Source: a virus
IMG/VR virus record: IMGVR_UViG_3300007516_000141
Span: 1 to 24,304 of that record
Reading direction: 5' to 3' (one strand)
DNA: 24,304 nt
Positions 2,561 through 21,831 of the stretch are shown one piece after another. The notes under the pieces were generated by a model. That model saw only the letters and a program-made list of their open reading frames with translations. It was not told where the DNA came from and did no database searches. Each line of letters begins with the position of its first letter. Position 1 is the first letter of the stretch. The translations under genes were made by a program, and so were the position numbers.

Positions 2561-4258
2561 ATGGTTGATAAAATTCCAGACGGCGGGCATTCTCTCGCTA
2601 AATACTGCGGAGAAAGACTTGCGAGCCTCAAGAGCGCTCGGGCATCTTGGGAGCCGACTTGGGATGAGTTGGCCCGCTACATCATGCCGAGAAAAGCGGG
2701 GAAGATTTACCATTCCACGACTTCGCCGGACACTTCAGCGGAAGAAGAACTATTTGATTCGACCGGAGTTTTTGCCAATCAGACTCTTGCTAATGGGCAA
2801 ATGTCCTACATCACGCCTGCGGATTCTCGATGGTTTACGCTTGATGCTCCAATGAGCAAGAAGGGTGACGATGAGGTTGATTCATGGTTTCAGAAATGTT
2901 CGGAGATCACCCAAGCGGAATTGGCAGGCTCAAATTTTTATTCTGAGATTCACGAGTTGTATTTTGACGATGGATGTTTCGGGACCAGTTGCATGATCGT
3001 ATTGCCAGGGAAGTCGGTCTCATTGAATTTCGAGGCTTTGCCAATCGGTTCCTACTGGATCGACGAGGACGACGAAGGCAAAATTGATACGCTTTTTCGC
3101 GAGATTCAGCTTTCAGCCAGGCAGGCGGAAATGAAATTTGGCGCGGACAATCTCAGTCCCAAAATGACGGCGGCTTTGGAGAAGTTTAGGAAGGACGGCA
3201 AGCAAGGATCGCCCTTCACGGTGTCTCATGGTATTTATCCGCGTCCCTATGATGAGCGGGAACCGGGGAAGATGGACCGGAAAAACAAGCCTTGGAGGTC
3301 TGTTTACTTCATTGCTGGGGAAAACCATCTTATTTCCGACGAGGGATTTGATGAGAAGCCGTTCTTTGTTTCCCGTCATGCGATAAAGAGCGGTGACATT
3401 TACGGGACTTCTCCCGGACAATCGGCACTAGCCGACCTGCGGCAACTGAATTTTCTGGTCAAGCAAATGGACGCCTTGGCAGAAGTGACGGCCTTCCCTC
3501 GCTTTCTTGCGCCATCCTCTATGGTGGATGAGATTGACCTTCGGGCTGGTGGTATGACTATATTCAACGAAAACCTGCCTGGTGCTCTGCCGAAAGAATG
3601 GATGACTGCGGGCCGTTATGATGTCGGGCTTGACCGCGAGAAGCGAAAACAAACCGCCATCGAACGATTGTTCTACGTTGATCTTTTTCAAATGTTCTCC
3701 CAGGTTGATAAACAAATGACGGCGCGAGAAGTTGCCGAACGAGCATCGGAAAAGCTGGCTCAATTCACACCGGCCTTTGCCCGCAAAACCACCGAACTTA
3801 TCACTCCACTACTTCAGCGTGTCTTTGGCATCCTCCTCCGTGCGGGCAAGTTCCCTCAACCTCCCATGCAAGCCATCGAACAAGGGGCCGATGGTGCGTT
3901 CCTCCCAGATCCCTCTGTCGCTTATAATTCGCGGGTAGCTCTTGCAATCAAAGCCCTCCAAAACACGGCATTTTTTCGGTCGATGGAAATCAATATGCCT
4001 CTCGCCCAGCAACATCCCGAGATCATGGATAATTACGATCTCGACAAGATTTCCCGCGATACCAGCCGGAATGACGGCTTGCCCGCTGATTGGATGCGGG
4101 ATAAAGACGAAGTTGATGAGATCCGGGCCGGTCGGGCTCAGGCCCAGGCAGAAGCCGCGCAGCAACAGCAAATGTTGGATGCGTCGATGGCGGCAAAGAA
4201 TGTTGGCGGGATCAAACCAGATTCAGTTGCAGGACAAGCCATCTCGAAAGAATTATGA
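2561..4258 (+). CDS. Portal (head-tail connector), T7 gp8 family
   Basis: A 565-residue portal forming the dodecameric ring through which DNA enters and leaves the head and to which the tail attaches. T7-type portals are 530-570 residues. Family-like features are an N-terminal helix ending in WDELARYIMPRK, then ELFDSTG and LANGQMSYITP (about residues 60-90). The middle contains YGTSPGQSALADLRQLNFL (about 282-300), and there is a late TAREVAERASEKL helix corresponding to the stem/crown region. A glutamine/alanine-rich tail (AQAEAAQQQQ) lies near the C terminus, common in these portals. The ATG immediately follows the preceding TAA, and its own stop overlaps the next start (ATGA, 4255-4258). 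Confidence 0.92.
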   Translation: MVDKIPDGGHSLAKYCGERLASLKSARASWEPTWDELARYIMPRKAGKIYHSTTSPDTSAEEELFDSTGVFANQTLANGQMSYITPADSRWFTLDAPMSKKGDDEVDSWFQKCSEITQAELAGSNFYSEIHELYFDDGCFGTSCMIVLPGKSVSLNFEALPIGSYWIDEDDEGKIDTLFREIQLSARQAEMKFGADNLSPKMTAALEKFRKDGKQGSPFTVSHGIYPRPYDEREPGKMDRKNKPWRSVYFIAGENHLISDEGFDEKPFFVSRHAIKSGDIYGTSPGQSALADLRQLNFLVKQMDALAEVTAFPRFLAPSSMVDEIDLRAGGMTIFNENLPGALPKEWMTAGRYDVGLDREKRKQTAIERLFYVDLFQMFSQVDKQMTAREVAERASEKLAQFTPAFARKTTELITPLLQRVFGILLRAGKFPQPPMQAIEQGADGAFLPDPSVAYNSRVALAIKALQNTAFFRSMEINMPLAQQHPEIMDNYDLDKISRDTSRNDGLPADWMRDKDEVDEIRAGRAQAQAEAAQQQQMLDASMAAKNVGGIKPDSVAGQAISKEL

Positions 4259-4560
4259 CAATAGCGGAAAAGCAAAGCTCCCGAAAGCTCAAGTCCGACC
4301 AAGAGCACGGCCAGAGGATTTCCCTCTATCGTCAAGTTTTTGGATCGACTGAGGGACAAGCGGTCCTAGCTGATCTATCCAAGGCAGCCGGGCTGACTTC
4401 CCGCGTGTTCATGCTGGCGGATAAGGGCGACCATTCTGCCTATGACCCTCTTAAAGCTGCCCTAAAGGATGGTGGCCGTGATGTGATTATCCGCATCCAT
4501 GAGATCCTTTCTTCTCCAATCGAGGAGGAAAAACCAAAACCCAAAGTTAAAAAATCATGA
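4255..4560 (+). CDS. Bbp19-like small phage protein
   Basis: A 101-residue, charged, mostly helical protein coupled to the portal by ATGA. The core VFGSTEGQAVLADLSKAAG (about residues 23-41), followed by a GGRDVIIRIHEIL helix (about 74-86), fits the Bbp19-like phage domain. That family takes its name from a Bordetella phage BPP-1 virion-region gene and is usually found beside the portal. The C terminus is a lysine/proline tail (EEEKPKPKVKKS). The exact role is unknown. Its stop overlaps the next start (ATGA, 4557-4560). The family call is from memory of the pattern F-x-x-x-x-G-x-x-VL-x-DL. Confidence 0.65.
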   Translation: MTIAEKQSSRKLKSDQEHGQRISLYRQVFGSTEGQAVLADLSKAAGLTSRVFMLADKGDHSAYDPLKAALKDGGRDVIIRIHEILSSPIEEEKPKPKVKKS

Positions 4561-4907
4561 TCGAATTAAAAGGAAACACCGTCTTGCGAGATGGGGAAGA
4601 GGTTGGAGTGGTGGACGAAAAGAACGTCTTCCATCCAGTCCAAGGCTTGCACCACAAGACCGTCACAATGGTCGAAAAGGAACTTTCCAAAAACCAGGGT
4701 GGACAAGCGGCAAGTCGCTTGCCTCATAAGCAAGAGATCGCCGGTTCGAGTCCGGCCCCTGGCACCACTTCGCTTAAAGGCGAGCCTGAACGAACTGAAC
4801 TTGGGGACATTGACCCGGATCTGATCGAATGGCGGCGCGAGAATTGGACGGAAGCTGATTTCGTCGCGTTATATCCCGCATCCCGGTTGCGGCAACTCGG
4901 GCTTTAA
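4557..4907 (+). CDS. Small protein whose gene contains an entire tRNA
   Basis: A 116-residue reading frame coupled by ATGA to the preceding gene. Residues 1-45 look like an ordinary small domain (beta-like, with VLRDGEEVGVVDEKNVF). Residues about 72-116 are acidic and end with a WRRENWTEADFVALYP element. Residues 46-71 are the in-frame translation of the tRNA at 4693-4767 and include AGSSPAPGT, the peptide classically produced when a tRNA T-arm is read as protein. The tRNA is 75 nt, a multiple of three, and introduces no stop, so the two halves stay in phase. Whether both halves form one functional protein is unproven. Function is unknown. Confidence 0.6.
   Translation: MIELKGNTVLRDGEEVGVVDEKNVFHPVQGLHHKTVTMVEKELSKNQGGQAASRLPHKQEIAGSSPAPGTTSLKGEPERTELGDIDPDLIEWRRENWTEADFVALYPASRLRQLGL
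4693..4767 (+). tRNA. tRNA with CAT anticodon (Met or Ile2), encoded CCA
   Basis: A full cloverleaf can be drawn. The acceptor arm is 4693-4699 with 4757-4763 (six pairs, with A-C opposed at position 1-72). T8 and G9 follow. The D stem GAC/GTC (4702-4704 and 4714-4716) carries a loop with GG. The anticodon stem is CTTGC/GCAAG around loop CTCATAA, with anticodon CAT at 4725-4727. The variable loop has five nt. The T stem GCCGG/CCGGC holds loop TTCGAGT. A73 and a genomic CCA (4765-4767) complete it. Tertiary partners T8-A14, G15-C48 and G18G19 with T55C56 are all present. The anticodon stem lacks the three G-C pairs of initiators, so this is elongator Met or, if lysidine-modified, Ile(AUA). Confidence 0.88.
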
Positions 4908-4910
4908 TTT

Positions 4911-5282
4911 ATGGACAAAAAAGCTAAATCAAAAAAGGCGACAGTGAAAAAGAAAATCTCCGTCAGACCTCCGGTAAAGAAAAGCCAAGCGCGAAAAACT
5001 AGTTCAAGAGTTCTGTCCACAATGCAGAGGGTTGTTGAAGAGATTCATAATAAAAACCAAAAAATGAGGAATGACCTCATTGACTCGATGGCGTCCGACC
5101 TTTCAAAGAAAATTCAAGAGGCAGTGAGGCTGGCGGCGTTAGATCGCGACATGGAAAGGTTCGTTGAATGGGGGATAGGCAGCCATTGGGATGCATACAA
5201 CGTCATTGAAGAAGCCACTAATAGCGGAGCAAGAAAAGCAATTTCATGGCTCAGACTTCAAGGGCAAAATATAAATTTATGA
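4911..5282 (+). CDS. Lysine-rich, AT-rich hypothetical protein
   Basis: A 123-residue protein of unknown function. The first 35 residues are strongly basic (MDKKAKSKKATVKKK...), which suggests nucleic-acid contact. A charged helical stretch follows (VVEEIHNKNQKMRNDLIDSM, about residues 43-62), then SDLSKKIQEAVRLAALDRDM, so a coiled coil is plausible. The first 180 bases are about 42% GC against about 57% in the scaffold gene that follows, so it may be a late arrival in the assembly operon. It begins three bases after the preceding stop, and its stop overlaps the scaffold start (ATGA, 5279-5282). There is no clear ribosome binding site. Confidence 0.6.
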   Translation: MDKKAKSKKATVKKKISVRPPVKKSQARKTSSRVLSTMQRVVEEIHNKNQKMRNDLIDSMASDLSKKIQEAVRLAALDRDMERFVEWGIGSHWDAYNVIEEATNSGARKAISWLRLQGQNINL

Positions 5283-6127
5283 GCGAAGAAACCACTACCA
5301 CCGAGGCGACCACGGAAGCCCCTGCCACCACAACCGAAGCAACCGCAACAACCCAAGCGCCGCCTCCTGCTGGCTTCGTTGGTGAAGATGGCGCGTTTGT
5401 CGAGGGATGGACTGACCGCTTGCCGGAAGAGATGGGCGATGCCAGATCAACTTTTGGCAAATTCAAGTCACTGCCTGATATGGCCAAGAGCTATCGGGAA
5501 CTCGAAACCCGCCTTGGAAAACCAGTAGGGGTAACGGTGCCTGGCGAAAATGCCAAGCCGGAAGAAGTGGCTGCCTATCGAAAGGCGGTGGGCGCTCTGG
5601 AATCCGTCGATGAATATGCCAAGATCAAACCGGAGAACTTGCCGGAAGGTCTCGACTGGAATGACGATCTATCAAAGCCGGTCTATGAACTGGCCCACAA
5701 ATACAACATCCCAGCGGAGGCGGTGAAAGAATATGTGGCCCTCCGCGCTCAGCAAGAGTCTGGCCGGATCGTCGCGACGACGGGCGAACTGCAACGGCAA
5801 CTGGACGAAGGCACTGCCACTTTGAAAAAGGATTGGGGCGAGAATTACGACAAAAATCTTCATCGTGTCGCCCAGGCGGCAAAAATTGCTGGGGTGGATG
5901 CGACGACGGCGCCAGGGTTCCGCGACCCGGAGACGCTTAAAGGCTTTCTTCGCCTCTCGGAAAAGCTCTCGGATGATGTTTGGCAGACCGGCGCAACCAG
6001 CAACAGTGCATCTATGTCGGCCAAGGACATCCAGACCAATCCTCAGAATCCGCTCTACGACCGATACCAGAAGGGCGACCCTGATGTGGTGGCCCAGGTT
6101 CGCTCTTTGATAAAGCGAGGACAATAG
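5279..6127 (+). CDS. Capsid scaffold protein, T7 gp9-like
   Basis: A 282-residue acidic protein placed between portal and capsid, the T7 gene 9 position. Scaffolds guide coat assembly and leave before maturation. The N terminus is a low-complexity Thr/Glu/Ala segment (about residues 1-30), followed by FVGEDGAFVEGWTDRLPEE. A helical middle contains LPDMAKSYRELETRLGKPVG and Glu/Lys-rich helices. The C terminus is basic (VRSLIKRGQ), as expected for a coat-binding tail. ATG 5279 is preferred over the upstream in-frame ATG at 5246 because it forms an ATGA overlap with the previous stop and begins the acidic low-complexity segment. A strong terminator follows 25 bases after the stop. Confidence 0.82.
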   Translation: MSEETTTTEATTEAPATTTEATATTQAPPPAGFVGEDGAFVEGWTDRLPEEMGDARSTFGKFKSLPDMAKSYRELETRLGKPVGVTVPGENAKPEEVAAYRKAVGALESVDEYAKIKPENLPEGLDWNDDLSKPVYELAHKYNIPAEAVKEYVALRAQQESGRIVATTGELQRQLDEGTATLKKDWGENYDKNLHRVAQAAKIAGVDATTAPGFRDPETLKGFLRLSEKLSDDVWQTGATSNSASMSAKDIQTNPQNPLYDRYQKGDPDVVAQVRSLIKRGQ

Positions 6128-6152
6128 TTCGCCCTAAACGGGCATCATGAGG

Positions 6153-6191
6153 GGCCGGTCACCAATGGGTTTTGGTGGCCGGTCTTTTTTT
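6153..6191 (+). terminator. Strong intrinsic terminator after scaffold
   Basis: A 13-bp stem (6153-6165 with 6172-6184, two G-T wobbles) around loop TGGGTT is followed directly by seven T (6185-6191). It ends the packaging/portal/scaffold transcript and separates it from the capsid unit. Confidence 0.9.
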
Positions 6192-6223
6192 GCGCGATAA
6201 CGGATCGAATTAAAATATTTGTG

Positions 6224-6252
6224 TTGACTGGATGCGGGAAATTTCATAAAGA
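6224..6252 (+). promoter_or_regulatory. Candidate promoter of the capsid unit
   Basis: TTGACT (6224-6229, 5/6 to the -35 consensus), a 17-base spacer and TAAAGA (6247-6252, weak) lie in AT-rich DNA between the scaffold terminator and the capsid gene. The context TTGTnTTGACTnGAT (6219-6233) recurs just before the tail fibre gene. A dedicated promoter for the highly expressed coat would make sense here. The -10 box is poor, so the assignment is tentative. Confidence 0.4.
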
Positions 6253-6297
6253 ATAAATTCAGCAATAAAGCGGACAACCTCCTTCGTGTGGCCCGCC

Positions 6298-6357
6298 GAT
6301 GGCAATCCCAAGACGGAAACCCGGAAACGGACAATTTCGCTGCCATGGGCGCAGTTT
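6298..6357 (+). promoter_or_regulatory. Capsid mRNA leader with possible stem
   Basis: The 200 bases between the terminator and the capsid start hold no convincing gene. ATGGCA (6299-6304) can pair perfectly with TGCCAT (6351-6356), closing a large A/C-rich loop about 40 bases before the capsid ATG. An in-frame ATG at 6299 lies in this stem. The extra 32 residues it would add to the capsid look non-protein-like, and there is no ribosome binding site, so it is treated as leader. The regulatory role is speculative. Confidence 0.25.
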
Positions 6358-6394
6358 AAACCACAACGAAATTCAACAGGAGATTATTAATCTT

Positions 6395-7318
6395 ATGTCC
6401 GCTAATTCTACAATCCCGGCACACTATCCGCTGGAATATGGTACCAACTGGGAGCAGCTCGTTCAGCAATCTGACAGCCGCCTTTCAGAATACGTCACCA
6501 TGGCACCCTTCGACGGCAAGTCGAAGGACTTCAATCAAATCGGAGCCGTTACCTGGCAGGCCATTCTTGGCCGTGCTCGCGAAACGGTTATCACTGACAC
6601 CCCGCTCGGCAAACGACGTTTGACCCAAGGCGGATACGACAAAGCTGACCTGTTCGACGAATGGGATGAGACCTTCCTTGGTCAAATCTCGCTTCCTCGT
6701 TCTGAGGTTCAAATGGCTCACCTTAATGGGTGGAATCGCCTCAAGGACACCGTGATTATCGCGGCTGCCCTCGGTGATGCCGTTGTTCCCTCGGTCACTT
6801 CGCTTGGTCTCGAAACAACCACCACGACCGCGTTGCCCGTTGGTCAGAAGGTAGCCATCGACTACGTGGAAAGCGGCAGTGATGCAAATTCCTCGCTGAC
6901 CATCGGAAAACTCCGTCAGGCCAAGTTTATCTTGGACGATGCGGACGTGGACGATGAAGAGGCCCGGTGTATTGCCATCACGGCAAAAGAACTCCAAGCG
7001 TTGCTTCGGGTGACCGAAATCACAAGCATCGACTACAATAGCGTCAAATCGCTGGTCGAAGGCAAGGTTGATACGTTCATGGGATTCTACTTCAAGAGGG
7101 TCTCTTCGAGCGTGATGCCTGCAGTGTCCGGCGTTCGCAATCTCCCTTGCTGGGTGAAGAGCGGCGTGAAGATGTCCACCGTTGGCGCTCGCGCTCACAT
7201 GGACATCCGGGCCGACAAGAGCCATTCCTTGCAGATCCGTCATACCGGCCTTGTCGGTGGCGTCCGCATGGAGGAAGCGAAGGTCGTGCAAATCGCAGTT
7301 GATACCACCTTGGCCTAA
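6395..7318 (+). CDS. Major capsid protein
   Basis: A 307-residue coat protein, assigned from position directly after the scaffold and before the tail-tube genes, and from its sequence style. It begins MSANSTIPAHYPLEYGTNWE and continues QLVQQSDSRLSEYV. It then has a loop rich in charged residues (APFDGKSKDF, RARETVITDTPLGKRR) followed by DEWDETFLGQISLP, as in several podophage coats. Later strands include VAIDYVESGS and a long charged helix (KLRQAKFILDDADVDDEEAR). ATG 6395 is chosen because an AGGAG (6378-6382) lies upstream, although the spacing of 12 bases is long. The upstream ATG at 6299 has no such site. It has its own leader and candidate promoter, consistent with high expression. Confidence 0.85.
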   Translation: MSANSTIPAHYPLEYGTNWEQLVQQSDSRLSEYVTMAPFDGKSKDFNQIGAVTWQAILGRARETVITDTPLGKRRLTQGGYDKADLFDEWDETFLGQISLPRSEVQMAHLNGWNRLKDTVIIAAALGDAVVPSVTSLGLETTTTTALPVGQKVAIDYVESGSDANSSLTIGKLRQAKFILDDADVDDEEARCIAITAKELQALLRVTEITSIDYNSVKSLVEGKVDTFMGFYFKRVSSSVMPAVSGVRNLPCWVKSGVKMSTVGARAHMDIRADKSHSLQIRHTGLVGGVRMEEAKVVQIAVDTTLA

Positions 7319-14259: not shown

Positions 14260-17200
14260 ATGGCTTTAATTATCGACCCGGAACCGCAAGAGGACAGCCC
14301 CGTCATTGACGACGCAACCGCCCATAGCTTTATGGAGCGACTCGACACGGCGGGACCGGATGAGCGGCCAACCATTGAGGCAAAACTCCTTCAATACGCC
14401 GACGCACAGGACGCAAGGAAGCGCGAAGTGCAAGGGGAGCATTTCGCCAAGCTCTATACGGACGATGAATTTTTCAAGAAGCAGTCGCGCCAACCCGCCG
14501 TGGTTGATGCTATGGCGGCATCATTGATTCCCGAAACGCTGCCAATCAGGGCGGCAAATCAAGCGTATCTCGAGTTTGCCACGGGGAAGCAACCTGGGGA
14601 ACTGACCGACACGTACGAACATTGGCGGGACGGGTTCGGGCAAAAAGCCAATGGAAAGCCGACCATCACGGATCAGGAAATGTTTTCGCTGGTGCGAGAC
14701 AATTTCACAGGGGAGAAGAAACGAGCGATGGATGAACAACTCATCCTTGGTGATGTCATGAACGGCCTTTTCGAGGAAGCGACGACTGGAGTGGTACAAA
14801 CTGGAGCCGCAGCACTCCAAAAATACAAGACTGAAAATCCCGATTTTGCCAAAGGTCTCAAGCCGGGCGAGGAAGCGCAATATCTCAATGGACTCATGGC
14901 GACGAGGGAAGATCTTCGAGAGAAATTCGACAAATATGCTCCCACCGCAAAGCGCCTCTATGACGAGGTGACAAGTCAGACAGGGCAGAAGGAAGGCTCT
15001 GGCGCGAAGAATGTCATTGGAGAGATTGCCAATATGCCAAAGGCCGACCAAGACATTCTCTTTTCTGCAGTATTGCTGGCCGCGCAACGGAGCGGGTTTG
15101 ATCCGAAAGGGTTCTTGAAGCAGACTGCGGAAACGCTCGGGCGCGCGACCATCGGCACAATGAATCAAACCGTAAGAGTGACGATGGAGGACGGCTTGCG
15201 AAACAAGCTCAGGTCATTAAATCAGCTTGATGTCCCTGAAATTAAATACGGAGGCCCACGAAGCATGGATGAGATTGGAGCATTTGCGATGCTGGGGCCA
15301 AGGTCTCGGTCGGGATTTGAGGAGAGTTACCCGACGCCAGAGAGTAGAGCGAAGGCTAAGGAGGAAATCCAAGATCAACTGAATGTCATTGGCGTTATTC
15401 GCAAGATCGACAATCTTTCACAGGAGGCGGACCCAATCAAGGTGGTCTCGAAAAGCTGGCTTGGGCAAGTGGCGGAAAAATCAGTCTATGGCGTTGCTGG
15501 GTCTGCTGGGATCATGGCTTCCTCAATGATTCCCGTCATTGGTCCAGCGTTGACGTTTGCGGCTTACCGAGCAGGCAACTATGAGCGACTCAGGAACGAA
15601 GCTCCAGATTTAGCCCCAGAGACCGCGAGCAGCTACGCGACAGTCATGGCGATTCCAGAGTCGATTCTTGATAGGTTTCAAATGGGCATTCTTTTCCGTA
15701 AGGCTCCCATCTTCTCTAAAACGCTTAAAGCAATGACGCTTTCCAAAAAAGGCATGGTCGGAAAAATGGCGAATTTCGGAAAGACTGCCAGCGTCATGAC
15801 GGCAGCGGAGACCGGGATTGAACTGGTTCAAAACTTCATCCCGCTTGTGGTCGATCAGCTCGGCATGGCTCTGGAAGAAGATTACCCTCAACATAATTTC
15901 AGAGAAGACCTAGCGCAATATCGTGACGCGATTCCAGAGACCATCGGCACGATGTTGATTATGTCCATGTTTGGGGCGGGCTTCGCCACAATATCAGACA
16001 CGAGAAATGGCCGTCATTTACTCGAATTCGCGCAACCCATGACTGACTCCGGGATTTCCGATGAAGGGGCGGCGAAGATCATCACGGCTCCCACAGAGGA
16101 AGAGAAGCTCGCCATCTTCATAGAGGAGGCAGCAAAGCGGACGCCGGAGAGCATTGCCGCCGGGGTGGCTGCGAGCAATGAGCGGGTGGCGAATCAGAAG
16201 GCGAATCAGGCTCAAGAAGGTAGATCGGAATTGACGGTCTCCTCTGTCCTTGGCGATCCCGATGAGAATGGCAACCCGGCGCAAGAATGGACTTTGACCG
16301 ACTCGAAAGGACAGGTTGTCATTAAGACAAGGGATCAAGCTGCGGCATTGATGGCGAAAGAAGAAGCTGACCGGGCATGGATGACCGGGAAGACATCGGG
16401 CATTGCCGAAGGCTTGGAGCACATCAAGGCCGTCAATGAAGCCATCGGTCGCGGCGAGGACGTTCAAAAGATCCTGCTCGGGAAAGGCTCGCAATCCTTC
16501 CTTGAGATTTACAACGCCGACAAAACGCCAGAACATCTCGATAGGCTTTTCGAGACGGTGCGTTCCCATGGCTACGAGATCAAGGAAGTTGAACAGCTTG
16601 CTGGATATTTCGTCAAGGCATCGAACCGGGGGCGACTTAAGGATGGGATTTACAAATCAATAATTGCGGTGAGTGACGGGGCCGACGGCATTCACCTCAT
16701 GCGGGATTACTCCCAGGACAATTTGAGGCGGGCCATCGAGGAAGGCGACACAACGATTGAATGGGTGCGGGATCAACTTGATTTGCTGAAAGGCCACAAG
16801 GAATTTGCCAACCTCCTGACCGAAACTGATACCAATGTCATTGAAGCGTTCTCGGACGTTGCGGTCTCGTATTTCCTCGGGCGCACGAAAGAAAGCCAGA
16901 TTCCCTCGGGGCTCCGCACATTCATGCGACAAATCGCGGTCTTTTTGCGGGAAATTCTCGTGCGGTCGTATCGGCTCAAGCGAGCGATTGCGGCGGGCGA
17001 CGTGAACCAGAATTTCCAACAACTCCTTGCCACATCGACTGGGCTTGACGTTGACCAGATTGCCCGCATGGAGGGCGAGAAGGAAGGGCGTCGGATGCAG
17101 CAAGAGGCACTTGATTCGGTCAACGCCGGGGAAGGGACGCCGGGGGTTGAGCTTCTCGACGTGCTGACCAGTTCAGCCGAGAAGCTGCCAGACACGAAAT

Positions 17201-20200
17201 CGCCATTCTTCACACCGGAGATTGGCAGGCTGAAAGAATTGGTACAGCAACTTGGCAAGGGAGAGTTTGCAACCCGCAAAAAGATGAGGATCAAGGATCT
17301 CTTCTCCAATGACGCCAAAGATCCAGACTTGCTGGTCGGTGCGTTCAATGAGGCGGGCCATGCCTTCTTCACGGTTGATGACATGGTGCAGGCATTGGAG
17401 GAACGGATTCGGACTGGCAAAGCGCAAGTGGGGACAATTTCTTCTGATGCGGTATATGGGGATGGGAACTATTCAATCTCCAAAAAACAGGACGCCGAGT
17501 ACATGGCGGCTGTGGAGAGCGGCGACGTTGAAACTCAACAGGCGATGGTTGACGAGGCCGCGATGGCTGCGGGGTACGCGCCTCAGTCAAAGTTCAGAGA
17601 CGGTCACAGCGCGCCTAGCAATTCGCGGGCTACAGACGAACAAGTAAAAGAGGATGGAGCAGACGCCGCGCTGGATCAGGTGGCTCGCGGGGTTCATAAT
17701 CAACCTGCTGACTATTTTGATCCCGTAGTCGGACCACGTTTTTACTCTTACACCGATAAAAACGGGATGGAAGCATACCGCGCCATCAAGGCGGCAATGG
17801 TTGCAATAAACAAGGGGAAGTCCCCAAATATTACCGTTTACCGTGCAGTTCCCTTATCTGTTAAAAACACCCGGATAGAAAATAGAGATTGGGTGAGTCC
17901 TTCTCGCGGGTATGCCGTTGATCATGGGGAGTCACGGTTTGGCGAGGGTGAATACCGCATCATCAAGGAAAGCATCCCTAGCAAAGAACTTTTTTGGGAC
18001 GGCATCGACATTCGGGAATGGGGCAAGGACGACGATCAAAACCGCGTTTACAAGAACACGGAAAACAACATAAAATCAGCGGACCCAATCACGCGAGACG
18101 AAAGCGGCAACGTGATTCCGCTTTCGGAGCGGTTCAAACCCGAAAGCGACAGCATCAACTACTCCATTGGAACTAAGGCGTTCGCGCGCCACGCTGACCT
18201 TGAAGCGAAGCACAAGGCTGGCACGATCACCGAAGCAGAGACGGCGGAGGCTCAGGCGTTGGTGGATGCGGCGGCGATGAAAACAATCGACAAGGTCCCC
18301 AAATCTAAGGCTTTTTCCGCCTTATCTGAATCTGAGTCGTCGGAGTTTTTGCAAGATATTGACGGATTTGCGCCACTGCCAAATGACGATCCGACCAAAA
18401 TTGATATATTTGAAAGGTGGATTTCTGTCTTAAAGAGCCGCGGGGTTCAGTTTCTTGATGGGTACCATGTTACCAATGCAAGCCGAGAGGATGTTGTTAG
18501 TTCAGGAATTGAAGGATCAGAAGTTGATTTGATTGGTCGGACAGGTGGAAATGCGCGAGGGAATTCGGTATATTTATTTCTTGAGACTGATGAGATTTTA
18601 AGAAGTTTTAATGGTGTTATGGGAGCACCGGGATTCACTCCGAATGTCATTCATATTAAAATTCCGCTTAATCAGCTTGGAAACCTGAGATGGGACTCGA
18701 ATTTCAATGTTTCTTATGAAACGAGAAGCGCGGTTAGAGTATTAGACGATGTGCCGTACGACAATGTTCTTGGCGTATATAAAATTGAAATTCCTGGGAC
18801 CGACCCGTTCACCGGCGTCCCGCTAGACCAGCGGTTCGATTCCTCGCAGGACAGCATCAACTACTCCATCTCCAAAGGCACAACTGACCGGGTGCAGGCC
18901 GCTCTCGAAGACAGGCTGAACCGAAGCCCTGACGCTCGCCTGGCACTCTACAAGCGGGCCAAGGTCAAGTTTGACGAGGTGCGGAAAGATCGTGGAAATT
19001 CCACCGATCCCAACAGGAAATTTTCCTCACTCCTGCAAAGCATGAGGGAACTAAATGCGATTCTTATAGTGCTCCCGAAGGATATTCGCGGGAAGGTCGG
19101 CGGGATGATGCCACTTGCCAACATGGGCAAGGATACCATACAAGGCAACCAGGTTGCCACCGTGGACAAGTTCCTCGAAAAGCGGATTGCCATGATCGAC
19201 AAGGAACTTGAGCGGGTGTTGAAGAAAGAATATCTCGCCGGATTGCGGAAGCTCATCAAGAAACTTCAGCCTGTGAGGTCAAGCGGCGGCGCCGCCAAGT
19301 CATTCCTTGGAGATACGGCTCAGGAAATTGCGATTGATGCCGGAAAGCTCGCGCTCCTCACGAATGATGAGGTTGCCAAGGAGATGCTTGATCTCGATGC
19401 GGCTATGAATGAAGGCCGGACCGATCAGAACCTCTATGAGCGGTGGTCGATGCTGAATATGTTCGGAGACCTAAAGGGAAGGGACGCGGCCACCTTGGCC
19501 ATCGCTTTTGATTGGCTCAAGAAGGTGGCTCAAGAGGGGCGCGACAAAACGAAGATGACCCGCGAGGCCCATTTCGCCAGCCTGAAAGAAATACGCTCTG
19601 CCCTCCTTGATGATATTGGCCGGGTTGAACTGTCTGACAGTTTCAGGGCGTCGCATAAAAAGTTCTTCGGAAGGGCCGGAGATTGGTCGGGTTCAGTCCT
19701 TCGTAACCATCTCTCCTTCGAGCAGTTCCTTGCGACAATTTTTCAGAACAGTCCCGAGCAAGTTAAATACTTTTTTGAGCGGATGATGAAGGCCGATAAT
19801 GCGGACCAAGATATGCGAATCCGTTATTCGCTTGAACTATTGGCGACAATTAAAGCCGGGGCCAATGCGGCAAAGAAGACAGCCGGGAAAGCAGCTATTG
19901 ACCTGATGGCACCCCATGAAAACGCGGTCATAATCTTGGAGAACATAAAGACTGAGACCGCAAAGCTGACTGTCGAGCAGGCGGAAAAGATGGCACTTGG
20001 CGAGATTGACTCTGGCAAATTCACGAAAGAAGAAATCCAAGACGCCTTGGATTCTCAGAGAGAAGAGCTTGCCGAGCGTGATGCCAAGGCGGCGGCAGAG
20101 GGAAGGGATAATGCACCGCTCGCCCAACGTGAATTTGTTGAGGTTAGCCGCAGGGTCGGAGTTGAAAAGGGCGCGACTCTATCCAGAAACCAAGCCATTC

Positions 20201-21831
20201 AGCTTCTCCTCACATGGAACCAGCGTGACGGTCGGAAGAAAATGAAGCTGGGCGAATGGAGGGAAGACACCGGCGAGCAGTTGCAGGCCTTCATCGAGAA
20301 AGACCCTGTTGCGGTCAAGGTCATGGATTTTCTTCAAAAGTTTTACAGTGAGGGAGCGGCGAGAGTAAACCCTGTTTATGTTCGGATCTTCGGCATGAAT
20401 ATGCCTACGGGGGAAAATTACGCCCCAGCAAGCTATGACCACCAAGGCGACGAGGTTGAGATTGGCCCCGATGGCATGGCAACTTCGGGCGGCTCTACGC
20501 CGGGATTCCTCAAGGGAAGAGTCTCTCATAAAGCATCAGTCTCACCTTCGGGAGCCATCACCATCTTTCAACAACACCTTGCCCAACAATCCCACTGGGT
20601 CAACTTTGCGGAACTGGGCCGGGACTTTAAGCACATCTTCGCAGATGCCGACATGAAGAAATCCCTTCGCGCCAAGTTTGGGAATTACGCGAACGAAGAA
20701 GTCTCGAAGTGGACGAGTCTCCTTGAGACTAGAGGGGGCGACAGGTCAAATTCGATGGCGTGGATGAATGGCCTTTTAGGAACTCTTATCGGCGGCAAAG
20801 CAATCTCATCCCTAGGGTTCAATATGCGGACCTTGACAATGCAGACCGATGCCGGGATGCGATTCATGTTTGCAATGGAACCGGGCGAGGTTGTCCGCGC
20901 CTTCTCTGACCCAGCCGCATTGGTTAAGTCCATGCCTGCTATTTGGTTCTCAGAAGCCGTTCAGCGGAGGATTAAAGGCGGGATGAGTCCTGCCATGCAA
21001 TTCGTTTTCCAGCAATACTCAGCGAAGCCTGGGGTCATGGCGAACGTAGCTCATGCGTCGATGGCACCAATCAACAGGACAGACGCTTTCTTCACCACTA
21101 TTGGGAGCGCGATTGTCTTCCGTTCTGCTTACACCACCGCAGTTGCGGAAGGGATGAATGAGAAGATGGCTGTTGACCACGCAATGAAGGAGGTTGACAA
21201 GGCCATTTATAGGTTCTCCCAGCCGATAGGCGTGGGGCAAAAGTCTCTGATTGAGAACTCTGGCAATATCCTTACCAAATCAATCATGATGTTCATGAGT
21301 GACCTCCGATTCAAGAGCGCGATGATGATTGAGGCAGGCTTTGAGATTAAGAAAATCGCCGAGGAGGGCAAAGGCAACTGGCAAAAGCCCTTGAAAACCA
21401 TCTTAACGATCGAGGCAATGGCATTTATCTCGCATTCTATGGGGAATCTTTATCGGACCCTGTTGAGCGACGATGAGCCAGAAGATATTTGGGCGCGGAA
21501 GGGATACTACAAGGCGCTCGCCCTAGCTCCGTTTGCTGGCCTTATGTTCGGCGGCACTATTGCCGATGTTACCTTATCGAAGCTGTTCCATGAAAGATTC
21601 TTTATGCCGTCAAGAGATCCGGTTGTGGATACCGCCATGCGAGGACTCAGGACGCTAAATAACATTGACGAGACATTCAATGTCGATGACCCCGAGGAGA
21701 TGTACCGCCAATGGCGAAACATCTCAAAAACAATTTCCGTTACTCCAGGACTCGCCGCCCCCGCAGCCGCCCTGAATCTCATCTCGCCTGCCTTCGGTCT
21801 GGCTGAGCGGTTAAAAGAAATGGAGAAATAA
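14260..21831 (+). CDS. Giant gp16-position ejection protein / polyvalent protein with two ART-like domains
   Basis: A 2523-residue protein, nearly twice T7 gp16, probably ejected with the DNA. Residues 1-400 are helical. Hydrophobic stretches lie at about 408-440 and 558-585. Residues about 858-900 (NVIEAFSDVAVSYFLGR) resemble the tail of a zincin domain with no HExxH before it. ART-like domain 1 (about 1110-1260) has VYRAVP (R1195), DWVSPSRGYAVDHG (1210-1223) and LFWDGIDIREWG (1244-1255). ART-like domain 2 (about 1385-1510) has GYHVT (H1403) and SVYLF (Y1438). Repeated borders end in INYSI or NYSI (1070-1073, 1299-1303, 1533-1537). A long helical region follows, then an LPD38-like part (about 2180-2390) and hydrophobic segments (about 2378-2440). 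The gene begins one base after the preceding stop. Confidence 0.85.
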   Translation: MALIIDPEPQEDSPVIDDATAHSFMERLDTAGPDERPTIEAKLLQYADAQDARKREVQGEHFAKLYTDDEFFKKQSRQPAVVDAMAASLIPETLPIRAANQAYLEFATGKQPGELTDTYEHWRDGFGQKANGKPTITDQEMFSLVRDNFTGEKKRAMDEQLILGDVMNGLFEEATTGVVQTGAAALQKYKTENPDFAKGLKPGEEAQYLNGLMATREDLREKFDKYAPTAKRLYDEVTSQTGQKEGSGAKNVIGEIANMPKADQDILFSAVLLAAQRSGFDPKGFLKQTAETLGRATIGTMNQTVRVTMEDGLRNKLRSLNQLDVPEIKYGGPRSMDEIGAFAMLGPRSRSGFEESYPTPESRAKAKEEIQDQLNVIGVIRKIDNLSQEADPIKVVSKSWLGQVAEKSVYGVAGSAGIMASSMIPVIGPALTFAAYRAGNYERLRNEAPDLAPETASSYATVMAIPESILDRFQMGILFRKAPIFSKTLKAMTLSKKGMVGKMANFGKTASVMTAAETGIELVQNFIPLVVDQLGMALEEDYPQHNFREDLAQYRDAIPETIGTMLIMSMFGAGFATISDTRNGRHLLEFAQPMTDSGISDEGAAKIITAPTEEEKLAIFIEEAAKRTPESIAAGVAASNERVANQKANQAQEGRSELTVSSVLGDPDENGNPAQEWTLTDSKGQVVIKTRDQAAALMAKEEADRAWMTGKTSGIAEGLEHIKAVNEAIGRGEDVQKILLGKGSQSFLEIYNADKTPEHLDRLFETVRSHGYEIKEVEQLAGYFVKASNRGRLKDGIYKSIIAVSDGADGIHLMRDYSQDNLRRAIEEGDTTIEWVRDQLDLLKGHKEFANLLTETDTNVIEAFSDVAVSYFLGRTKESQIPSGLRTFMRQIAVFLREILVRSYRLKRAIAAGDVNQNFQQLLATSTGLDVDQIARMEGEKEGRRMQQEALDSVNAGEGTPGVELLDVLTSSAEKLPDTKSPFFTPEIGRLKELVQQLGKGEFATRKKMRIKDLFSNDAKDPDLLVGAFNEAGHAFFTVDDMVQALEERIRTGKAQVGTISSDAVYGDGNYSISKKQDAEYMAAVESGDVETQQAMVDEAAMAAGYAPQSKFRDGHSAPSNSRATDEQVKEDGADAALDQVARGVHNQPADYFDPVVGPRFYSYTDKNGMEAYRAIKAAMVAINKGKSPNITVYRAVPLSVKNTRIENRDWVSPSRGYAVDHGESRFGEGEYRIIKESIPSKELFWDGIDIREWGKDDDQNRVYKNTENNIKSADPITRDESGNVIPLSERFKPESDSINYSIGTKAFARHADLEAKHKAGTITEAETAEAQALVDAAAMKTIDKVPKSKAFSALSESESSEFLQDIDGFAPLPNDDPTKIDIFERWISVLKSRGVQFLDGYHVTNASREDVVSSGIEGSEVDLIGRTGGNARGNSVYLFLETDEILRSFNGVMGAPGFTPNVIHIKIPLNQLGNLRWDSNFNVSYETRSAVRVLDDVPYDNVLGVYKIEIPGTDPFTGVPLDQRFDSSQDSINYSISKGTTDRVQAALEDRLNRSPDARLALYKRAKVKFDEVRKDRGNSTDPNRKFSSLLQSMRELNAILIVLPKDIRGKVGGMMPLANMGKDTIQGNQVATVDKFLEKRIAMIDKELERVLKKEYLAGLRKLIKKLQPVRSSGGAAKSFLGDTAQEIAIDAGKLALLTNDEVAKEMLDLDAAMNEGRTDQNLYERWSMLNMFGDLKGRDAATLAIAFDWLKKVAQEGRDKTKMTREAHFASLKEIRSALLDDIGRVELSDSFRASHKKFFGRAGDWSGSVLRNHLSFEQFLATIFQNSPEQVKYFFERMMKADNADQDMRIRYSLELLATIKAGANAAKKTAGKAAIDLMAPHENAVIILENIKTETAKLTVEQAEKMALGEIDSGKFTKEEIQDALDSQREELAERDAKAAAEGRDNAPLAQREFVEVSRRVGVEKGATLSRNQAIQLLLTWNQRDGRKKMKLGEWREDTGEQLQAFIEKDPVAVKVMDFLQKFYSEGAARVNPVYVRIFGMNMPTGENYAPASYDHQGDEVEIGPDGMATSGGSTPGFLKGRVSHKASVSPSGAITIFQQHLAQQSHWVNFAELGRDFKHIFADADMKKSLRAKFGNYANEEVSKWTSLLETRGGDRSNSMAWMNGLLGTLIGGKAISSLGFNMRTLTMQTDAGMRFMFAMEPGEVVRAFSDPAALVKSMPAIWFSEAVQRRIKGGMSPAMQFVFQQYSAKPGVMANVAHASMAPINRTDAFFTTIGSAIVFRSAYTTAVAEGMNEKMAVDHAMKEVDKAIYRFSQPIGVGQKSLIENSGNILTKSIMMFMSDLRFKSAMMIEAGFEIKKIAEEGKGNWQKPLKTILTIEAMAFISHSMGNLYRTLLSDDEPEDIWARKGYYKALALAPFAGLMFGGTIADVTLSKLFHERFFMPSRDPVVDTAMRGLRTLNNIDETFNVDDPEEMYRQWRNISKTISVTPGLAAPAAALNLISPAFGLAERLKEMEK
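17461..18147 (+). other. ART-like cassette 1 inside the giant protein gene
   Basis: The segment runs from the first NYSIS signature (residues 1070-1074) to PLSERF. A helical linker (DAEYMAAVESGDVETQQAMV, residues 1078-1097) precedes the ART-like domain. Candidate active-site elements of the R-S-E type are R1195 in VYRAVP and S1213/S1215 in WVSPSRG. The acidic position is not settled, although E1243 or E1253 near LFWDGIDIREWG are possible. This matches the ADP-ribosyltransferase family described in phage polyvalent proteins (recalled). GC over 17701-17940 is about 47%, modestly below the surrounding gene. Confidence 0.6.
18148..18167 (+). repeat. 20-bp direct repeat, copy 1 (border of ART cassette 2)
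   Basis: Identical over 20 bases to 18850-18869, in the same reading phase, encoding DSINYS plus the first bases of the next codon. It forms the left border of the second ART-like cassette. The flanking protein signature (PLSERF here, PLDQRF at copy 2) is also similar, with diverged DNA. Confidence 0.85.
18148..18867 (+). other. ART-like cassette 2, AT-rich, inside the giant protein gene
   Basis: The segment lies between the second and third INYSI signatures. A short Ala/Glu linker (residues about 1305-1342) precedes a domain with GYHVTNAS (H1403), NSVYLF (Y1438), a VIHIKIPL strand and a closing DDVPYDNVLGVYKIE. The H-x-T ... Y arrangement resembles the H-Y-E branch of ADP-ribosyltransferases (PARP/Tpt1 style). 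The third residue was not identified with certainty. GC over 18481-18720 is about 40% against about 60% a few hundred bases later, which marks it as a likely insertion. Confidence 0.5.
18850..18869 (+). repeat. 20-bp direct repeat, copy 2 (border of ART cassette 2)
   Basis: Exact copy of 18148-18167, 702 bases downstream, a multiple of three. Recombination between the copies would remove one cassette without breaking the frame. Confidence 0.85.

Follow-up and report, generated by a model that had tools for sequence, protein, structure and literature searches.

Why phages carry tRNA genes is an old question that has usually been argued from codon usage. Codon supply cannot explain a tRNA of the initiator type. 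Initiator-like tRNAs are already present in GenBank phages, where they are usually labelled tRNA-Met, and phage papers mention tRNA-fMet in passing. A literature search that had subscription papers mostly outside its reach found no paper treating phage initiator tRNAs as a class. Initiator-like CAU tRNA genes occur in Rhodobacter phage RcXuper (2294-2369), Pseudomonas phage D3, and Caulobacter phage CcrColossus. An initiator-like tRNA(CAT) of the A13:U22 form lies in phase inside an annotated coding sequence, near its end, in Mesorhizobium phage vB_MseS-P1 (gp13, PP232116; L100:2650-3150); the coding sequence is annotated as a transcriptional repressor and the tRNA inside it is unannotated. 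Some phage tRNAs with a changed anticodon loop, and so an anticodon arm unlike that of the host tRNA, are proposed to evade host tRNases (PMC10264068, PMC11555353), and phage tRNAs can rescue infection from a tRNA-cutting defence (PMC11555353). In S. flexneri, the one host examined, tRNA-fMet is reported to be generally avoided by phages (PMC10264068). The phage-encoded ribosomal protein bS21 is an initiation component located in the terminase-portal-capsid region and proposed to act late (PMC9723584).

Here we describe an initiator-derived tRNA in a viral stretch of 24,304 nucleotides (IMG/VR record IMGVR_UViG_3300007516_000141), referred to below as the window. Its gene order is that of podovirus morphogenesis: portal, Bbp19-like protein, a 116-aa ORF, putative scaffold, capsid, and tail. 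The features are as follows; L018 and L003 are related loci.

2561-4258, + strand: portal (head-tail connector) gene, from which relatives were sought (portal searches)
4255-4560, + strand: gene for a Bbp19-like phage protein, upstream of the ORF (Pfam PF25181, 32.3 bits)
4557-4907, + strand: ORF of 116 aa running through the tRNA in frame (ORF list; homologous 180-aa ORF in L018)
4557-4691, + strand: N-terminal unit of the ORF, about 45 aa, one copy in the window and two in L018 (comparison of the two)
4693-4767, + strand: initiator-like tRNA gene, anticodon CAT (ARAGORN, Rfam, feature table, covariation with L018)
4788-4904, + strand: C-terminal domain of the ORF (GDI..EWRR.NW..YP), found also in L003, which has no tRNA (comparison with L018 and L003)
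5279-6127, + strand: putative scaffold gene (phrog_3742, function unknown; scaffold inferred from its place before the capsid gene)
6395-7318, + strand: major capsid protein gene (Pfam PF19821, 190 bits; phrog_3437)

The tail region includes an ORF of 2523 aa (14260-21831). A scan of 4200-6450 for promoters and terminators gave no excess over shuffles.

The GenBank phage tRNA-Met genes are likewise initiator-like, but they often belong to large tRNA-rich phages and lie outside ORFs, unlike the one described here, and the RcXuper copy is host-like at position 13. The gp13 gene and its repressor region are unrelated to the ORF and region of the window. The phage tRNAs proposed to evade tRNases are elongators, whereas the present one is of the initiator type; bS21 is a protein with expression data, whereas the window element is a tRNA known from sequence.

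Identity of the tRNA

The preliminary description had claimed a complete tRNA(CAT) of 75 nt with an encoded CCA at 4693-4767, and had taken a low covariance-model score as a sign against it. ARAGORN called a tRNA-Met(CAT) at exactly these positions, the sole tRNA of the window, and the Rfam model RF00005 gave 60.9 bits (E = 3.9e-11; gathering cut-off 29). The anticodon lies at 4725-4727 and CCA is encoded at 4765-4767. When the fold of the unmodified 75-mer was computed, the cloverleaf was not the minimum-energy structure; the pairing rests on covariation, and the minimum-energy fold was excluded as evidence.

The tRNA bears the acceptor- and D-arm marks of a bacterial initiator tRNA. The A.C opposition at 1:72 is present as first noted; it had been read as an oddity of an elongator, yet together with A11:U24 it marks the initiator type. 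In a survey of 9,917 CAU tRNAs, A11:U24 marked 4430 of the 4438 initiators but was absent from all 5479 tRNAs of the elongator Met and Ile2 classes, and position 1:72 was mismatched in 98.6% of initiators (PMC5143459). With the initiators of E. coli (metZWV) and Verrucomicrobiota, the window tRNA shares the CAU anticodon, the 1:72 mismatch (bacterial initiators may also have U:A here), A11:U24, A73, and a G:C-rich acceptor stem. It differs at two places. Bacterial initiators carry GGG or AGG at positions 29-31 (PMC5143459), and those read have C13:G22, whereas the window has A13.A22 and an anticodon stem of UGC/GCA (29-31/39-41), in which G30:C40 is the only one of the G:C pairs to remain. Because of this stem we label the tRNA initiator-derived and not a canonical initiator. 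Its anticodon loop, CTCATAA, is unaltered relative to bacterial initiators.

A covariance model built from 16 phage tRNAs (R1) was used for comparison with bacterial tRNAs. The E. coli initiators metZ/W/V scored 73.3 bits, the elongators metT/U 44.2, and the Ile2 tRNA ileX 31.2. In two Verrucomicrobiota genomes the best bacterial match was one initiator (70.5 bits, the next match reaching 55), and matches at E <= 1e-9 were present in 56 of 59 Verrucomicrobiota genomes, the best loci read being CAT initiators. It is very improbable that the window tRNA is an elongator tRNA-Met or a lysidine-type tRNA-Ile2. Such tRNAs share the CAU anticodon, and the rare A.C type at 1:72 is known from 6 of 2717 Ile2 tRNAs versus 1 of 4438 initiators (PMC5143459); however, the window tRNA has neither the C11:G24 nor the paired 1:72 of these two classes, and both identities were dropped on the 11:24 pair and the R1 scores.

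Reading frame and constraint on the tRNA

The ORF at 4557-4907 and the Bbp19-like gene share an ATGA overlap, and no stop interrupts the frame within the tRNA. As the preliminary description had it, the tRNA lies in phase with this frame, and the tRNA of L018 occupies the same frame of the homologous ORF. It is not codon-aligned: its first nucleotide is position 2 of codon 46 and its last is position 1 of codon 71. The open frame says little by itself, because two of the three frames through the tRNA are open; more than coincidence is indicated by the tRNA(CAT) that relatives have in this genome interval and by the embedded copy of L018. The parts of the ORF either side of the tRNA look coding when the window and L018 are compared: pN and pS were 0.38 and 0.68 in the N part and 0.27 and 0.77 in the C part, with pS near saturation, indels were multiples of three, and third codon positions varied most in these flanking parts. 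The N-terminal unit, single in the window, is doubled in L018 (4620-4900).

The 116-aa protein had no Pfam family and no confident PHROG in searches of these collections. A direct search for its relatives returned a 100% identical contig in IMG/VR and, among GenBank phages, tRNA-driven matches only; relatives were therefore sought via the portal. The C-terminal domain occurs in L003 without a tRNA. Arrival of the tRNA, or joining of the frame, is therefore probably to be placed in a common ancestor of the window and L018, two phages being few for such a comparison.

The tRNAs of the window and L018 differ at 18 of 72 positions. Both bases are changed in six pairs and a single base in one, with all standard pairs intact; only 2 of 100,000 random placements of an equal number of stem changes preserve as many pairs. 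The peptide encoded by the tRNA keeps 15 of 25 residues and changes 10. Conserved amino acids without conserved pairing had been named as the outcome that would count against the tRNA, and the reverse is seen. An alignment of 16 sequences had 96.6% of its cells paired and a covariation score of 0.465, compared with 0.163 for shuffles and at most 0.089 for slid alignments; kinship alone can beat shuffles without structure, and the slid control is also far lower. Selection on the tRNA is clear because pairs are compensated while the peptide is more poorly kept, and because covariation exceeds both controls; from these comparisons the conserved thing at 4693-4767 is the tRNA rather than the peptide. 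The earlier proposal that the tRNA was inserted into a translated gene, or that the gene is now a mere carrier, thus stands in part: the tRNA is in phase between flanks that look coding, with pN below pS, but the residues it encodes (46-71) are kept less well than its pairing, L018 including the tRNA in its ORF and L003 retaining the C-terminal domain without it.

Relatives and the anticodon arm

Portal-based searches gave a set of 80 loci from IMG/VR and two from Verrucomicrobiota genomes. The window portal shares about 30-33% identity with the portals of HTVC010P-type pelagiphages, epsilon15, and BPP-1. In a quickly built portal tree with open forks, the portal-to-capsid interval holds a tRNA in three clades. 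Only in the window's lineage (clade A: window, L018, L019) does it lie within the ORF. It is found between the Bbp19-like and scaffold genes in clade B (L005-L013, L015) and between the scaffold and capsid genes in clade C (45 loci, with a split copy in L076), directly after a stop codon in both. Every tRNA found in these clades has the anticodon CAT. No tRNA was present in the compared stretch of L003, L030, L031, L054, L058, L078, and the Verrucomicrobiota loci L095 and L096. The tRNA is not essential, since several close relatives are without it, and its three positions may have arisen by repeated gain or by movement. An attachment-site tRNA was also weighed but not adopted, given the mid-operon location and the two Verrucomicrobiota relatives without it.

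Several features of single copies were observed. In L076 (7031-7465) about 360 nt with a small ORF (about 92-105 aa) split the tRNA between the D arm and the anticodon arm; an intron, an insertion, and a broken gene are candidate readings. A similar leader of about 200 nt lies between tRNA and capsid gene in clade C (L033:5770-5962, L059:6791-6977, L076:7466-7648), with ACTGATAC-type repeats and a TTGACT promoter-like start. A T run immediately follows the tRNA of L059, and L006 (6524-6596) has one additional anticodon-stem base, best read as a bulged A. Low-scoring tRNA-like matches in two Verrucomicrobiota genomes included odd 69-nt CAT tRNAs (L144 and L147; G013:C48 and G014:C11), possibly another mobile element.

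The anticodon arm varies among these phages while the anticodon does not. All 18 distinct clade tRNAs have a stem or a loop outside the bacterial set, and all read CAU. Among 56 distinct phage tRNAs, 45 depart in this way. One of the four bacterial stems is present in 20 of the 56, the loop is altered in 24, and G30:C40 is retained in 54. These changes are relative to bacterial initiators, a comparison set that may not be the host's. Several relatives encode no CCA, one group has C33, and some anticodon stems contain mismatches. Many relatives have the stem AGG/CCU, as do all 32 Verrucomicrobiota initiators read, which also have the loop CTCATAA. The U.U and C.U mismatches at 1:72 of clade C occur in Verrucomicrobiota initiators as well; together with the loci L095 and L096 they hint at hosts of the Verrucomicrobiota type.

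Proposed role and alternatives

The presence of such a tRNA suggests a phage that may supply its own tRNA for translation start. On balance, we think it probable that 4693-4767 is an initiator-derived tRNA serving late phage translation, possibly hardened against nucleases that cut initiators. Host RNase P and 3' processing would excise it from the late transcript, after which it would be charged with methionine, formylated, and would join or replace the host initiator during synthesis of structural proteins. An own initiator would help a phage whose host initiator has been cleaved. In several bacteria, VapC toxins cleave tRNA-fMet at the junction of anticodon stem and loop (PMC8522696), and a stem and loop that drift while CAU and nearly always G30:C40 are kept would fit escape from nucleases of this type, the least certain step; counting against it, the window loop is unaltered and the stem alone differs. 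Full initiator function is also called into question by the absence of G29:C41 and G31:C39, as replacing all three G:C pairs makes the E. coli initiator inactive in initiation (PMC10486304). In the window's lineage the tRNA gene would have come to lie within a small ORF, and both tRNA and protein could be made from different transcript copies, because the open frame would let unprocessed RNA be translated into a fusion.

It is unlikely that the fold is kept as a place for RNase P and 3' nucleases to cleave, splitting the late polycistronic mRNA and setting message ends with decoding irrelevant. The location of the tRNA between structural genes, directly behind a stop codon in clades B and C, and the copies without an encoded CCA fit such a site, but it would have no need to retain CAU, found in all clade tRNAs, or the 1:72 mismatch and R11:Y24, and 5' processing is reportedly weakened by a 1:72 mismatch (PMC5143459). 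We regard as quite unlikely a decoy that, lacking the three G:C pairs, would be charged, formylated, and bound by IF2 without starting translation, and so block host initiation or ribosome maturation. The E. coli mutant behaves in this manner, being aminoacylated, formylated, IF2-binding, initiation-inactive, and harmful to ribosome maturation (PMC10486304), and this role keeps its small probability because the window tRNA retains the middle G:C pair only; against it, the phage's own late proteins need initiation, and the AGG/CCU stems and near-constant G30:C40 of the relatives do not suit it.

Two further readings have slight probability. The preliminary description proposed a post-transcriptional switch, in which translating ribosomes and excision of the tRNA would compete for the same transcript and so fix the protein:tRNA ratio. 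In-frame embedding and indels in multiples of three, shared by the window and L018, agree with it, but competition need not be regulatory, and embedding is confined to one small lineage; it cannot be the general purpose of the tRNA because the gene is intergenic in the other clades. Equally slight is the chance that the tRNA was picked up from a host and is now a neutral passenger or a relic in decay. Patchy presence, the split copy in L076, and stem mismatches could speak for this; compensatory changes throughout, and the absence of any broken standard pair between the window and L018, argue against decay. For the favoured role in late initiation, a clade whose only detected tRNA is of the initiator type, with a drifting arm and the rest constrained, offers a clean test of initiation takeover and nuclease escape, and the in-frame copy gives a small natural example of a coding sequence that contains a functional RNA.

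A broader proposal is tentative, and we lean against it at present: phages may own an initiator tRNA lineage, marked by A13, a relaxed stem with G30:C40, and in about half of its members A18/G55, often as the lone tRNA near packaging or capsid genes, which would take over late initiation; in the window's lineage one RNA would be both message and tRNA. The phage tRNAs share A13, and positions 18 and 55 co-vary among distinct phage tRNAs (L005-L255), with 25 A18/G55, 24 G18/U55, and no mixtures. A pattern requiring A13 matched at least 118 IMG/VR stretches, which is a lower bound and not a frequency; among the matches listed, many had no second tRNA in the stretch and many lay outside the window's clade. 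The same pattern, which requires A13 and a short D loop, had no match in 288 Verrucomicrobiota genomes. Within a hand-picked set of 17 loci, six (L180, L250, L212, L179, L240, L218) have the tRNA on the strand of the terminase genes and upstream of them, and in others it lies near DNA polymerase, helicase, or primase genes.
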